The notes beneath the pieces are model-generated. The model was not told the origin of the DNA, did no database searches, and worked only from the letters and a program-made list of their open reading frames with translations. Shown here piece after piece: positions 59,451 through 64,000 of a stretch of DNA of 64,000 nucleotides. The stretch lies in NCBI GenBank assembly GCA_016235425.1, contig JACRLC010000016.1, forward strand, positions 62,001 through 126,000, written 5' to 3'. Both the position numbers and the translations under genes were made by a program. Position 1 is the first letter of the stretch, and each line of letters starts with the position of its first letter. Source of the DNA: Chloroflexota bacterium (GTDB taxonomy: Bacteria > Chloroflexota > Anaerolineae > Anaerolineales > Villigracilaceae).

Positions 59451-59489
59451 AAAAAATGACGGTCACTTTGGAAGTGACCGTCATTTTTT
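59451..59489. terminator. Bidirectional terminator, 18-bp stem
   Basis: AAAAAATGACGGTCACTT (59451-59468) pairs with AAGTGACCGTCATTTTTT (59472-59489) around a TGG loop. It serves the S1 gene on the plus strand and the acyl-AMP ligase gene on the minus strand, whose stop (59488) falls inside the stem. Confidence 0.85.
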
Positions 59490-61158
59490 ACGCCAACTCT
59501 TTCAAAAACTTCTCTTTATTCGCCGAACGCGCCGTCTTGCCGCTGGATGTTTTCAGGATCCACTTTGGGCCGACCACTTTCACATAACGCAACGCGATCG
59601 CAGAATTCTTCGTCACGTGTTTGCGAATCTCGTCGGCAACGCGCTGATGTTCGGCTTCATCTTCCGAATCCACTTCGGCGATAATCACAACATCCTCCGT
59701 TCCCTCTTCCTCGTCGAATATCCCAAACGCCACTGAGCGGCCCGCATGCACGCCAGGCACTTCGTACGTCAGCGACTCCAAATCCTGCGGGTACACGTTC
59801 TTGCCGCCGACAATAATCATATCCTTCTTGCGCCCCGAAACAAACACCTCCCCCTCCGCAACAAAACCGAAATCGCCCGTCAGATACCAGCCATCCAAAA
59901 ATGCCTTCCCGGTCGCGTCGGCGCGGTTGTAATAACCTGTCAACATGCAATCGCTTTGCAGGGCGATCTCGCCGACAACCCGCTCAGGCACATCATTCCC
60001 CTTTTCGTCAAGAACTCTTATTTTGACATTCGGAAGCGGACGTCCCGACGACATGATTTTCATCGCTGGACGGCCATTCGCGGCCCTCGCGATTTTTTCC
60101 GTCATAAACGCTTCCCGCTCCACTTCCTCGACTTTGGGCTGCCGCGCCAAACCAGACTGGGTCACCCCGAAGACATTTTCCGCCATCGCATAGGATGTCT
60201 GCAACGCCTCGGGTTTCAGGCCATAATTTTTGAACTTCTCGTAAAACGCGTGATGACTTTCCCAACGCACAGGCTCCGAGCAATTGATGATCGCGCGCCA
60301 CGTGGACAGATCCACGCCTTCGAGGTGCCGGTCACGGATTTTGTGCGCGCAGAAGTTGTAGGCAAAGTTAGGGAGCCACGAAAGCGTGCCGCGATATTGC
60401 GAGACGGAGTGCATCAATTTGTATGGAGCGCGCACCCAATCGAACGGTGACATCAACACGAGGCGCACACCCATCAGAATCGGTTGCAGGAATCCGGCAA
60501 TCAGTCCCATATCGTGATACAGCGGCAGCCACGAGACGATCACATCACTTTCAGTCAGCCCCAACACGCGGCTATACGCAACAAGTTGATTGAACACTGC
60601 CTGATGCGAAAGCGCCACGCCTTTTTGCAAGCCTGTCGTACCGGAGGAGTGCTGAAGCAAAACAATATCTTCGGGCTTGCGCGTCATTCCCGCCAAAGAC
60701 GAAAAATCAGTCTCGTCCAGCACTTCCACCTTCTCAGCGACAATTACTGCCCGCACCGAATCATCCTCCGTCAGCGCCGCGCGGACTTCACTCTCGAACT
60801 CGGCATACGTCACAATCGCGGCGGGACGCGTCACCGAAATCAGCGCGGACAAGTCTGCGCGGTAACGCTCGGGCGAAAGTTTCTCCGTCAGAAACGGCAT
60901 GATCGCGGGAATCGCGCCATGCAAGACCGCTCCAAAAAACGAGTAAATCAATTCTTCGCCATGTTGGAGAATCAAGACAATGACTTCACCAGGCTGGATG
61001 TTTTCCTTTTCAAGTGCGCGGGCAAATCCATTTGCGCCCTGCATTAATCGCAGGTAGGTGATGTCAAAGTCCGGGTGGCCGGACCTCTGCATTGTAACGG
61101 CGGCCCGTTCCGGGGTCCGCGCGAGATGCGATTGCAATCGCCCGGTAAATGTCGTCAT
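59488..61158 (-). CDS. Fatty-acyl-AMP ligase-like protein
   Basis: 556 residues of the ANL adenylating superfamily. It has the AMP-binding P-loop SSGTTGLQKGVALSHQ, SWLPLYHDMGLIAGFLQPI, LSWLPNFAYNFCAHKI and the ligase end WYLTGDFGFVAEGEVFVSGRKKDMIIVGG with the C-terminal lysine region KTSSGK. The HDMGL and PNFAYN blocks are typical of fatty-acyl-AMP ligases, which make acyl-AMP and pass the acyl group to a carrier protein rather than to CoA. Its start overlaps the stop of the carrier gene by 4 nt. Together with two SGNH proteins and an MBOAT, it forms a dlt-like cassette. D-alanine is unlikely as substrate. Confidence 0.85.
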   Translation of the reverse strand: MTTFTGRLQSHLARTPERAAVTMQRSGHPDFDITYLRLMQGANGFARALEKENIQPGEVIVLILQHGEELIYSFFGAVLHGAIPAIMPFLTEKLSPERYRADLSALISVTRPAAIVTYAEFESEVRAALTEDDSVRAVIVAEKVEVLDETDFSSLAGMTRKPEDIVLLQHSSGTTGLQKGVALSHQAVFNQLVAYSRVLGLTESDVIVSWLPLYHDMGLIAGFLQPILMGVRLVLMSPFDWVRAPYKLMHSVSQYRGTLSWLPNFAYNFCAHKIRDRHLEGVDLSTWRAIINCSEPVRWESHHAFYEKFKNYGLKPEALQTSYAMAENVFGVTQSGLARQPKVEEVEREAFMTEKIARAANGRPAMKIMSSGRPLPNVKIRVLDEKGNDVPERVVGEIALQSDCMLTGYYNRADATGKAFLDGWYLTGDFGFVAEGEVFVSGRKKDMIIVGGKNVYPQDLESLTYEVPGVHAGRSVAFGIFDEEEGTEDVVIIAEVDSEDEAEHQRVADEIRKHVTKNSAIALRYVKVVGPKWILKTSSGKTARSANKEKFLKELA

Positions 61159-61406
61159 TTGGAGAGTCTGGATTCGATGAGAGAGGCCAGTTGGGCGAGA
61201 TTGTCAAAAGTATTTGCATTCAACTCAGTATCCTCGATGCGGACGCCGAAAGTATCCTCGACAAATAAAGCCAGATCCATCAGGCTGAACGAGTCTACCA
61301 ACCCGCTTGAAATGAGCGGCTCGGCAGGTTGAAGGGTGCGGTTTGGCTGCTTGAGAATTTGCGAGGCAATATATTTTTCGACAACAGGGATGACTGAATC
61401 GTTCAT
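61155..61406 (-). CDS. Acyl carrier protein
   Basis: 83 residues. The phosphopantetheine serine is in GLVDSFSLMDLA (about residue 38), with the acidic helix II after it. It starts at the ATG at 61406, preceded by AGGAG; the longer upstream frame is not coding. The C-terminal half (VRIEDTELNANTFDNLAQLA) is acidic, as in carrier proteins. It would hold the acyl chain made by the adjacent acyl-AMP ligase and pass it to a membrane acyltransferase. The start lies 8 nt after the SGNH stop and the stop overlaps the ligase start. Confidence 0.9.
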   Translation of the reverse strand: MNDSVIPVVEKYIASQILKQPNRTLQPAEPLISSGLVDSFSLMDLALFVEDTFGVRIEDTELNANTFDNLAQLASLIESRLSK

Positions 61407-61414
61407 TTTTGCTC

Positions 61415-62548
61415 CTAAGGATTTGAACAGGAATAATTTATAACGGAAGGCGCCAATTGTCCGGCCATCATCCTTTCGCCCTCCGGTGATAGGTGAAAGG
61501 ATGAATCGCCGAACTCTTTTCCCGGAATCGCATTCCACAGGTCCACGTAAAAGTAGCCCTTTTCTTTCATCCACAGGTCCATGTAGCTGCGATAAAGATC
61601 GTACGCCCAACGCGGATAGGATGAATTATAGCGAACTTCGCCCGCGGTTCCATCGGCAATATAAATCGGCTCGTTGACAAAAACAACAGGCGCGTTTCCC
61701 GCCGCCTGATGGCCGGCATCAATAACGTCGAGCATAAAGGTGCGTTTCAATTTGTTCCAGTCATCCGCAGAACGATAGGTCAGATACTCCGCGTTGGAGC
61801 CGATTTCATCCTTCCATAAGGTGGAGACTTGAATACGATGATCAATGGACGTGGATGCCCACAGGAAGGAATCAAGCTGTAATAAAATGCCGCGCTTCAA
61901 ACTGCCCCGCTGGCCCACAATGGTCTGTTCCAGGAAAGATTCGGGGCTGAAGCCGCGCGTGTAGTTTCGCAGGTTATACTCTTCGACCAGGCGATTGACC
62001 TCATCGAAATGCGGGACCAAAAAATCATCCCGGCCGTCCTCTGAATTCAAGGTGTACAGGGTTATGAACCACAACACCATGTCCGGCTGGTAGGCAATCG
62101 CCCGATCGAGGATCAGGAGATCTTTGATGATAAACGCCCTGGGATAACCTAAATTGTAAAAGTGTATCGGCCTGCCATCACAAGTTTTCAGGTCAAGCCG
62201 GTTCAACTGCCCTTCAATTGTCTTGTCCGGTTGATTGCCAATTCCCCAAATCGACGAATCGCCCAGCAAAACGACGCGGTATTCATCAGGCTGTTTTGCC
62301 GTCCCGGAAATTTCATGCGACGCAAAGGTCGCATCCAAATCCTCGAACAACGGGACGTTATAACCCGTAGCCATGTTTTCCGGCTGCTCGAATGGAAACC
62401 TGCTTCTGCCGGGAACCAGCCAATTGTAGAAAGTGAGTTTTCCAATCGGCGGCCGGAACGCGGCAAATAACACATTGGCAAGGACAAATAATGCCAATGA
62501 TTTCAAAATTACCCGAACAGGACTGATCGTATTATTCTTCAATTCCAT
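61415..62548 (-). CDS. SGNH/GDSL-like membrane-anchored hydrolase or acyltransferase, copy 2
   Basis: About 377 residues. An N-terminal membrane anchor (about 13-30, LKSLALFVLANVLFAAF) is followed by an SGNH-type domain with the catalytic serine in VVLLGDSSIWGIG and the C-terminal Asp-x3-His in FGDSSFHLSPEGE. The arrangement is as in AlgJ/DltD-like partners of MBOAT acyltransferases. The start at 62548 overlaps the end of its neighbour by 17 nt. It shares many positions with the copy at 62532-63671 (GKLxxYNWLVPGR, GDSS/GDSA, TIVGQR, NEPI, YPRWAYD), so the two are tandem paralogues. Confidence 0.82.
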   Translation of the reverse strand: MELKNNTISPVRVILKSLALFVLANVLFAAFRPPIGKLTFYNWLVPGRSRFPFEQPENMATGYNVPLFEDLDATFASHEISGTAKQPDEYRVVLLGDSSIWGIGNQPDKTIEGQLNRLDLKTCDGRPIHFYNLGYPRAFIIKDLLILDRAIAYQPDMVLWFITLYTLNSEDGRDDFLVPHFDEVNRLVEEYNLRNYTRGFSPESFLEQTIVGQRGSLKRGILLQLDSFLWASTSIDHRIQVSTLWKDEIGSNAEYLTYRSADDWNKLKRTFMLDVIDAGHQAAGNAPVVFVNEPIYIADGTAGEVRYNSSYPRWAYDLYRSYMDLWMKEKGYFYVDLWNAIPGKEFGDSSFHLSPEGERMMAGQLAPSVINYSCSNP

Positions 62549-63671
62549 TTCCCTCTTGTGATGCGCAGGCCATCTCAAGCAGTTTGGGGGCGAGTAAATC
62601 TGCCAGCATCTTTTCGCCCTCCGGGCTTCGGTGAAAGGGTGTGTCCGTGAACTCAGCGGAAGGGATTGCATTCCACAGATCGAGATACTCATGTTGATTT
62701 GTATTCATCCAGCCTGAAAGGTACTCCAGGTAATAATCGTATGCCCAACGCGGATAGAACTCGTCGTAGCGAATATCGCTGTTTGCGCCGGTTGCAATAA
62801 AGATCGGTTCGTTGACCACAAGAAGCGGAACATCCCCGGCAACTCCATACCCGGCACCGAGAACGTCGAACAACAATTCATCCAGATCGAGTTTCCCCGG
62901 TTTGTACACATCGAAGAGCAGGCTGTCAGACTGGTCATTGGAAAGCGGCTCATATGAGTAATAATAATGATCGACGCCGGTTGCTTTCCATGCAAGGCCA
63001 TGGATTTGCAGAAGAAATATTCTTTTTATTCTGCTCCGCTGGCCCACAATCGTTTTATCCCAAAAGGCCGGCGACTCGAGTTTCTTGATGTCAAGGTTGT
63101 TCAGCCGGTACCTGTCTATCAAAGAGAAAACATGATCCGCATACGGGTTTAAAAAATAATCGGTGTAAATCGTGCGGTTGCGGAAGGCATCGAGTGTGAT
63201 CATCCAGATGAACATGTCCGGGTCATACTCCCGCACCTTGTCCATGATCAACACATCCTTCATCACGTAAGGTAAAGGAAAAGCCGTGTTATAGGCTGTC
63301 ACTCTTTTGCCATCGCACGTGGTGAGATTCAGCGCGGTCAATTGTGCAGCAAGCATATCCTGCGGATGAAGCCCAAAAGCCCACGCCGCCGAATCGCCAA
63401 CCAACGCCACCCGAAATTCATCCTTCGCTTTCGGCTGTGAAATCACATGCGACTGGAACATGGCGTCCATATCTTCATAAACAGGAACGATATGCGAAAC
63501 AGGATAGTATTCCGCCTCACGTTCATAAGGCACACGCAGGCGCCCCGGCACAAGCCAGTTATAAATTGACAGCTTTCCAATCGCAGGTTCAAAATAAGCA
63601 AAAAGCAGGTTGGAAATTAAATAAAATACAAGCGCCTTGAAAACCACGCGCAGAGGGTTTACATCACTCAT
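62532..63671 (-). CDS. SGNH/GDSL-like membrane-anchored hydrolase or acyltransferase, copy 1
   Basis: 379 residues from the ATG at 63671, which overlaps the end of the MBOAT gene by 4 nt. An N-terminal anchor (about 10-28, VFKALVFYLISNLLFAYF) is followed by an SGNH-like domain with VALVGDSAAWAFG for the serine and FTDTPFHRSPEGE for the Asp/His part. These residues match copy 2. The protein would work outside the membrane, taking the acyl group from the MBOAT protein or removing it from the product. The role is inferred from the AlgI-AlgJ and DltB-DltD pairs. Confidence 0.82.
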   Translation of the reverse strand: MSDVNPLRVVFKALVFYLISNLLFAYFEPAIGKLSIYNWLVPGRLRVPYEREAEYYPVSHIVPVYEDMDAMFQSHVISQPKAKDEFRVALVGDSAAWAFGLHPQDMLAAQLTALNLTTCDGKRVTAYNTAFPLPYVMKDVLIMDKVREYDPDMFIWMITLDAFRNRTIYTDYFLNPYADHVFSLIDRYRLNNLDIKKLESPAFWDKTIVGQRSRIKRIFLLQIHGLAWKATGVDHYYYSYEPLSNDQSDSLLFDVYKPGKLDLDELLFDVLGAGYGVAGDVPLLVVNEPIFIATGANSDIRYDEFYPRWAYDYYLEYLSGWMNTNQHEYLDLWNAIPSAEFTDTPFHRSPEGEKMLADLLAPKLLEMACASQEGNGIEE

Positions 63672-64000
63672 TTTGCAAAACCAAACAGCACTTGAAAGGC
63701 GCTCCATGACAAATCCGGCGTCGAGAGGGTAAAGAACAGCCAGCCAAGCGAAACAAAATTGAAGGTCAGAAACACCCCTGCCGCGTTAAAAATCATCGCC
63801 CCCGCACGCGTTTGAAGCCAGGAAGGCTGTTTCCCGCGCGCCCACTCACTCCACCGGTTTTGAACAAATAAACCGAGGCCGTGCCAAAGTCCCCAAAGCG
63901 CAAATCCCCACGTCACGCCATGCCACAGGCCGATCAAAACCATCGCAGCGGCCTGGGTAATCAAAATGATTACAGGAACAGGCCACGAGATTTTGCTCGA
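63668..64000 (-). CDS. MBOAT-family membrane O-acyltransferase, N-terminus outside window
   Basis: C-terminal 110 residues of a membrane-bound O-acyltransferase (AlgI/DltB-type). The frame is open to the right edge, so the start lies beyond the window. The core motif is in IGLWHGVTWGFALWGLWHG, which contains the invariant His of the family, followed by a helix with FNFVSLGWLFFTLSTPD typical of the AlgI/PatA end. These proteins move an acyl group from a carrier across or into the membrane for transfer to a polymer. Its stop overlaps the start of the first SGNH gene by 4 nt, so the cassette is read as one unit. Confidence 0.85.
   Translation of the reverse strand, partial: SSKISWPVPVIILITQAAAMVLIGLWHGVTWGFALWGLWHGLGLFVQNRWSEWARGKQPSWLQTRAGAMIFNAAGVFLTFNFVSLGWLFFTLSTPDLSWSAFQVLFGFAK

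Follow-up and report, generated by a model that had tools for sequence, protein, structure and literature searches.

A Dlt-like gene cassette with a fatty acyl-AMP ligase in a Chloroflexota genome, and its likely role as an acyl relay

What would a set of genes built like the dlt operon carry across the membrane if its ligase belonged to the enzymes that activate fatty acids? The question is raised by a cassette at the right-hand end of a 64,000-nucleotide stretch from a Chloroflexota bacterium (the whole stretch that was analysed, hereafter the window; C106:62001-126000 of genome G000). Read from right to left, with all genes on the minus strand, the cassette encodes a membrane-bound O-acyltransferase (MBOAT), two SGNH proteins (SGNH1 and SGNH2), an acyl carrier protein (ACP) and a fatty acyl-AMP ligase (FAAL). 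We think it likely that this is a transmembrane acyl relay of the Dlt type in which the D-alanine ligase has been replaced by a FAAL; some component of the cell surface would then probably receive an acyl group, with a fatty acid as the likeliest candidate. The features are as follows, with the evidence for each.

59488..61158, minus strand: FAAL, fatty acyl-AMP ligase, 556 aa (PDB and NCBIfam matches, residues, insertion, tree)
61155..61406, minus strand: ACP, acyl carrier protein, 83 aa (Pfam PP-binding, kept DSF serine)
61415..62548, minus strand: SGNH2, with an N-terminal hydrophobic segment, 377 aa (43% identity with SGNH1; GDS serine and block V His)
62532..63671, minus strand: SGNH1, acyltransferase-like, with an N-terminal hydrophobic helix, 379 aa (AlphaFold2 model, SGNH fold)
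63668..64000, minus strand: MBOAT (DltB-like), last 110 codons and stop (NCBIfam DltB homology, two His)
L003:6669-8087, equivalent to window 63668-65086, minus strand: full MBOAT, 472 aa (reading past 64000)
L003:8088-8216, equivalent to window 65087-65215, minus strand: DltX-like microprotein, 42 aa (size, place, C-terminal motif)

A first-pass annotation of the window had listed five genes, and their order and spacing hold exactly: the MBOAT stop at 63668 gives a 4-nt overlap with the start of SGNH1 (63671), SGNH1 and SGNH2 overlap by 17 nt, 8 nt separate SGNH2 from the ACP gene, and the ACP and FAAL genes overlap by 4 nt. That annotation had left the completeness of the MBOAT to be checked upstream, where the gene proved complete. 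The five genes are all present, but the set as it had been drawn lacked a sixth member, the DltX-like shuttle. The six genes (microprotein, MBOAT, SGNH1, SGNH2, ACP and FAAL) probably form one operon, and their order is more than chance because it recurs in relatives, where a search for it had been proposed.

The first point to settle was the identity of the ligase. Its best PDB match is 3kxw (5.6e-75), followed by 3pbk (2.1e-71), and it matches Pfam AMP-binding at 2.7e-54. Among the best 25 of 106 NCBIfam families, the top match is the fatty acyl-AMP ligase family PRK09192, at 362.2 bits and below its 600-bit cut-off. The same score falls short of the DltA cut-offs of TIGR01734 (559.85 bits) and NF003417 (476 bits); the true DltA of this genome reaches 571.8 and 582.2 bits against the same two models. 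In EcFAAL, W224, P226, M231 and F279 are named as the FAAL pocket residues and proline (PMC8460268). The cassette FAAL has W210, P212, M217 and F265 at these four positions. Each is kept by all 99 ligases of an alignment limited to non-duplicate rows of 540 aa or more and 700 bits or more.

The genome itself served as a comparison. It holds 16 AMP-binding matches, including the FAAL (L189) and one that could not be aligned (L191), which leaves 14 others. None of these 14 carries the four-residue set, and the true DltA reads QPVS. The FAAL insertion region (positions 333 to 372) has 39 residues in the cassette enzyme and 40–41 in three solved FAALs, against 12–24 in the 14 others (18 in the true DltA); L055, a cassette relative, has a shorter stretch of 25 residues. 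The tree, from which the weakest AMP-binding match was left out (L190, 13 bits, kept in the residue and insertion comparison), places the cassette FAAL in a 10-row branch with the three solved FAALs at a support of 100/100; several other rows have long branches, and therefore only the FAAL grouping was used. From its place in the tree, its four diagnostic residues and the length of its insertion, we conclude that the cassette ligase is a fatty acyl-AMP ligase; of the 16 AMP-binding matches, 15 could be aligned, and no other of these qualifies as one on the same grounds. DltA or acyl-CoA synthetase identity is ruled out by the NCBIfam scores, the residues with the insertion, and the tree, and the earlier description of the ligase as FAAL-like and not DltA agrees with its position in the FAAL clade, outside DltA.

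This identity bears on the cargo. The same relay could carry a short, branched, hydroxy or aromatic acid and leave a small ester like an acetyl or D-alanyl decoration, as might be expected from the MBOAT-SGNH systems described in PMC12148441, which carry small groups, D-alanine or acetyl. Against such a cargo, the closest solved relatives of the ligase are fatty acyl-AMP ligases, and the FAAL-type residues tested are kept together with the insertion; we consider a small cargo unlikely.

Could the cassette instead be a dlt operon that has degenerated or moved and serves the D-alanylation of teichoic acid? It has the same part list, and its MBOAT is related to DltB (E 8.4e-64). Yet contig C19 of the same genome (L005:6536-10761) carries, in this order, DltC, DltD, DltA and DltB, all four passing an NCBIfam cut-off, with a Pfam-positive DltX open reading frame (ORF) between DltD and DltA (27.3 bits against PF12459, cut-off 25). 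With a true dlt operon on C19, the cassette is not the genome's dlt operon and relocation is rejected; it is a system parallel to an ordinary dlt operon. The DltB and DltC cut-offs are, like those of DltA, not reached by the cassette proteins: the MBOAT scores 216.2 bits against TIGR04091 (equivalog cut-off 375 bits), and the ACP 16.4 bits against PRK05087 (cut-off 68), where the genome's own DltC scores 75.1. In addition, Pfam DltD occurs in 4 of 298 genomes of the class (this genome and 3 of the 297 others), against 70 with the cassette SGNH. With the ligase lying in the FAAL clade, apart from the genome's own DltA, we regard a dlt operon in disguise as extremely improbable. The Dlt-like architecture that the first-pass annotation had proposed is nonetheless supported by the remaining parts.

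The ACP matches Pfam PP-binding (4.9e-7, 30.3 bits, cut-off 20.8), and its Asp-Ser-Phe, with the serine at the expected phosphopantetheine site, is identical across 97 aligned relatives. The MBOAT (Pfam 1.5e-19) is, judged by its TIGR04091 score, clearly homologous to DltB. Its His342 and His389 are identical in 69 of 69 aligned relatives and stand 47 residues apart, the same spacing as that of His289 and His336 in DltB. As with the ligase, the MBOAT and ACP alignments contain no duplicates and only rows that passed thresholds of length and score.

How an acyl group might pass from the MBOAT to an SGNH protein depends on a shuttle. In the described pathways this is the FXYXXF motif, with a Tyr on which the acyl group travels from the MBOAT to the SGNH protein; the motif is located on the separate microprotein DltX in Dlt and at the MBOAT C terminus in PatA-type systems (PMC12148441). 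None of the 69 aligned cassette-type MBOATs ends with this motif, and their C termini rule out an own shuttle motif on the cassette MBOAT. Other MBOATs encoded nearby do carry such an ending (FIYFQF, FIYVQF, FLYVQF or similar); at L048, L146, L151 and L163, second and distinct MBOAT genes with a fused C-terminal FXYXXF lie a few kb from the cassette MBOAT or the ACP-FAAL pair.

The candidate shuttle lies immediately upstream. A 42-aa ORF, whose stop codon directly precedes the MBOAT ATG, encodes a protein with a single strongly hydrophobic segment and TPTWIYQGF as its C terminus, in which WIYQGF is an FXYXXF-type motif with Trp, not Phe, in first place. W37, Y39, G41 and F42 are invariant in 26 aligned rows out of 64 motif hits, one of which (L078) looks like chance. 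Of 72 cassette-type MBOAT ORFs, 65 have a motif-bearing ORF no more than 800 nt upstream; these 72 are not all independent, because some loci are the same contig (L042 and L131, or L045 and L128, for example). In size, place and C-terminal motif, the microprotein resembles DltX, the acyl shuttle of Dlt. A shuttle tyrosine in the N-terminal segment of the SGNH proteins had been an earlier candidate and was dropped once the microprotein was found. In one genome, G232 (L222, C1:161940-163735), the microprotein ORF overlaps the 3' end and stop of the FAAL gene, and the best SGNH and MBOAT matches are on a contig other than that of the FAAL and microprotein.

The SGNH proteins would be the last members of the relay. 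Neither has a Pfam match over a cut-off; for DltD (PF04914) in particular, SGNH1 has no Pfam match up to E 1 and SGNH2 has none to DltD. The AlphaFold2 model of SGNH1 (pLDDT 89.6, pTM 0.90) has an SGNH fold. It aligns with DltD structures over 269–283 residues (Z 13.8–14.0, root-mean-square deviation 4.6–4.9), the longest stretch among the 50 matches listed, and with E. coli thioesterase I at a Z of 16.0, above DltD, over 170–171 residues. The GDS serine of block I and the His of block V are identical in 108 of 108 aligned SGNH rows, and SGNH2 keeps both. The doubling of the SGNH gene that had been pointed out is true of this cassette and is not general: elsewhere a locus has from none to four copies, with three or four at some. 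Where there are two, they may have two acceptors, or separate roles like those of AlgJ and AlgX (PMC4148444).

Two kinds of predicted lipoprotein accompany these genes in relatives. Many encode one of about 310 aa, usually between SGNH and ACP (for example L128:6712-7638, L042:6760-7713 and L118:6715-7662). Its model (pLDDT 80.5) has an SGNH-like fold, with SGNH esterases and thioesterases among the top Foldseek hits; the block I serine is replaced by cysteine (GDC), invariant in 37 aligned proteins, as are C163 and C172. It is possibly an SGNH variant with a cysteine nucleophile or a disulfide. The other, of about 130 aa, is encoded upstream of the MBOAT in some relatives.

To see whether the parts travel together, we counted them in the 298 genomes of the class. 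SGNH was found in 70, FAAL in 70, MBOAT in 70 and the microprotein in 71; the MBOAT count was 77 before seven weak matches were dropped (G037, G096, G135, G153, G211, G243 and G290; E 2e-44 to 9e-50). Of the 77 genomes that have at least one part, 63 have all four, and the microprotein profile matches every one of the 70 genomes with a cassette MBOAT plus one more. FAAL and SGNH are both present in 65 genomes, SGNH alone of the two in 5, FAAL alone in 5 and neither in 223 (Fisher p 3e-53, uncorrected for ancestry). Where both occur, they lie within 12 kb of each other in 38 of 65 genomes; in the other 27 they do not, some of these being on short contigs. When loci were anchored on SGNH, a FAAL was seen in the stretch read at 33 of 60.

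Loci were also anchored on the FAAL. Of 524 relatives the best 80 were taken, and six of these were set aside as distant or as belonging to other groups, which left 74 from Chloroflexota. They are mostly labelled Anaerolineae, Anaerolineales or just Chloroflexi, with one Herpetosiphon (L137). Among the 55 with at least 5 kb upstream, an MBOAT was present in 34, an SGNH in 34 and an ACP in 52. Besides the layout of the present cassette (microprotein-MBOAT-SGNH-SGNH-ACP-FAAL), variants include a predicted lipoprotein between SGNH and ACP, and MBOAT-ACP-FAAL with no SGNH detected (L097, L098). At L137:6941-7978 and L129:6868-7980, a different protein stands between ACP and FAAL; its THW motif suggests that it may be AlgJ-like. 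Further afield, an ACP-FAAL pair was seen in Aminicenantes (L171), and in an Elusimicrobia locus (L169) a FAAL with 39% identity to that of the cassette neighbours two MBOATs with fused shuttle motifs, each of them next to a 332-aa gene that looks SGNH-like in translation. An SGNH profile search of 400 genomes of the phylum found 34 with a match, all in the same class, and a plasmid collection gave one match, in Leptolinea sp. HRD-7 (38%), surrounded by mostly hypothetical genes.

Several of our observations weigh against a single relay with the parts assigned above. The co-occurrence counts ignore shared ancestry. All 298 genomes belong to a single class, and they also supplied part of the sequences behind the microprotein profile. 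A motif ORF is missing upstream of seven of the 72 MBOAT ORFs, in one case because there is too little sequence, and the motif varies (WIYLGF in L118 and L130, WIYQGY in L127, WFLYEGF in L132). The microprotein has no match to Pfam DltX (PF12459), and when its profile was compared with the DltX of the true dlt operon, only the final 10 residues aligned (E 1.3e-4, probability 54%), so that it is DltX-like by place, size and motif. In the SGNH proteins, the block V acid is Asp in 48 of the 108 rows and Asn in 57, while 3 rows have a gap there, and it lies four residues before the His, not three as the canonical Asp does (PMC9487903); the triad is therefore not canonical. The distant FAAL of L171 reads WPFS, and thus the residue set is not universal among relatives. 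Finally, a cassette-type MBOAT was not seen at 21 of the 55 FAAL loci for which 5 kb or more upstream could be read, and at L105, and by ORF length also at L111-L115, ACP-FAAL directly follows prfB; the ACP-FAAL pair might therefore serve other routes.

The prfB-linked pairs also speak for a reading in which the modules are independent neighbours, the FAAL feeding a cytoplasmic lipid pathway and the MBOAT and SGNH proteins using acetyl-CoA like PatA/PatB or AlgI/AlgJ. The 27 genomes in which FAAL and SGNH are not close point the same way, as do three genomes (G011, G200 and G280) with a FAAL match and without SGNH, MBOAT or microprotein. Such independence sits badly with the presence of all four parts in most genomes that have any, with the FAAL-microprotein overlap in G232, and with an MBOAT that lacks the fused shuttle motif tied to CoA-using MBOATs (PMC12148441). 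We judge it improbable, and return to the Dlt-type relay.

Gene content, family assignments, conserved residues and co-occurrence were established directly; how the parts would work together is proposed from FAAL family membership for the first step and from the Dlt and PatA/PatB literature for the four that follow, including their order. The FAAL would make an acyl-AMP, most likely from a fatty acid, and hand its acyl group to the ACP phosphopantetheine and not to CoA. The acyl-ACP would then dock at the cytoplasmic face of the DltB-like MBOAT, which, through His342 and His389, would pass the acyl group to the WIYQGF Tyr of the microprotein, outside the membrane. From this acyl-Tyr the group would go to the GDS serine of SGNH1 or SGNH2, and from there to a hydroxyl of a surface acceptor, probably a glycan or glycolipid. 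Taken further, this suggests a full fatty-acyl counterpart of Dlt in one Chloroflexota class (Anaerolineae by the labels of the relatives), adding acyl chains to an already exported polymer: a FAAL-ACP donor and a DltX-like tyrosine shuttle would yield a fatty-acylated surface glycan made outside the membrane. This fuller reading is a realistic possibility that we put forward tentatively.

The contig with the cassette has 170,671 bases in a genome of 5.0 Mb and 109 contigs. Glycan genes, which the first-pass annotation had suggested looking for upstream, were not seen beside the cassette in the translations of the neighbouring genes; these read as prfB and ftsY upstream, on the same strand, and a convergent S1-domain gene downstream.

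Within the literature searched, no known product is assigned to this gene order, in line with its earlier description as a combination without a described counterpart. A FAAL with an MBOAT-SGNH pair was found in none of the titles and abstracts covered (bioRxiv and most subscription journals were outside the search), and the terms MBOAT, O-acyltransferase and Dlt do not appear in the main text of a FAAL review (PMC11837247). If our reading is true, the cassette would be a second carrier-fed MBOAT-SGNH pathway, the ligase-carrier-MBOAT-shuttle-SGNH relay would be a general export route with its cargo set by the ligase, and FAALs would gain a role in surface modification. It also makes a testable prediction for the Anaerolineae cell envelope, for which the true dlt operon in the same genome provides a natural control.

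The closest known system is Dlt, whose product is the D-alanylation of teichoic acids, the only MBOAT-SGNH pathway for which PMC12148441 describes a carrier protein as the donor. The cassette shares with it a ligase, a carrier protein, an MBOAT without its own shuttle motif, a separate hydrophobic microprotein with a C-terminal Tyr motif (DltX in that system) and an SGNH protein with an N-terminal membrane helix. It differs in having a FAAL and not DltA, in a carrier, microprotein, MBOAT and SGNH that fall under the Dlt family cut-offs tested, and in an SGNH number that varies, with two in this cassette. Like PatA/PatB, AlgI/AlgJ/AlgX and Wss O-acetylation, it pairs an MBOAT with an SGNH protein for carrying an acyl group across the membrane. 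Those systems are described as having an acyl-CoA donor and a hexapeptide motif at the MBOAT C terminus (PMC12148441), whereas the cassette has a ligase, a carrier and a separate shuttle. Its FAAL with an ACP of its own recalls the FAAL-ACP pairs of polyketide, lipopeptide and mycobacterial lipid pathways, but here the partner is a putative surface acyltransferase, in place of a polyketide synthase or nonribosomal peptide synthetase.

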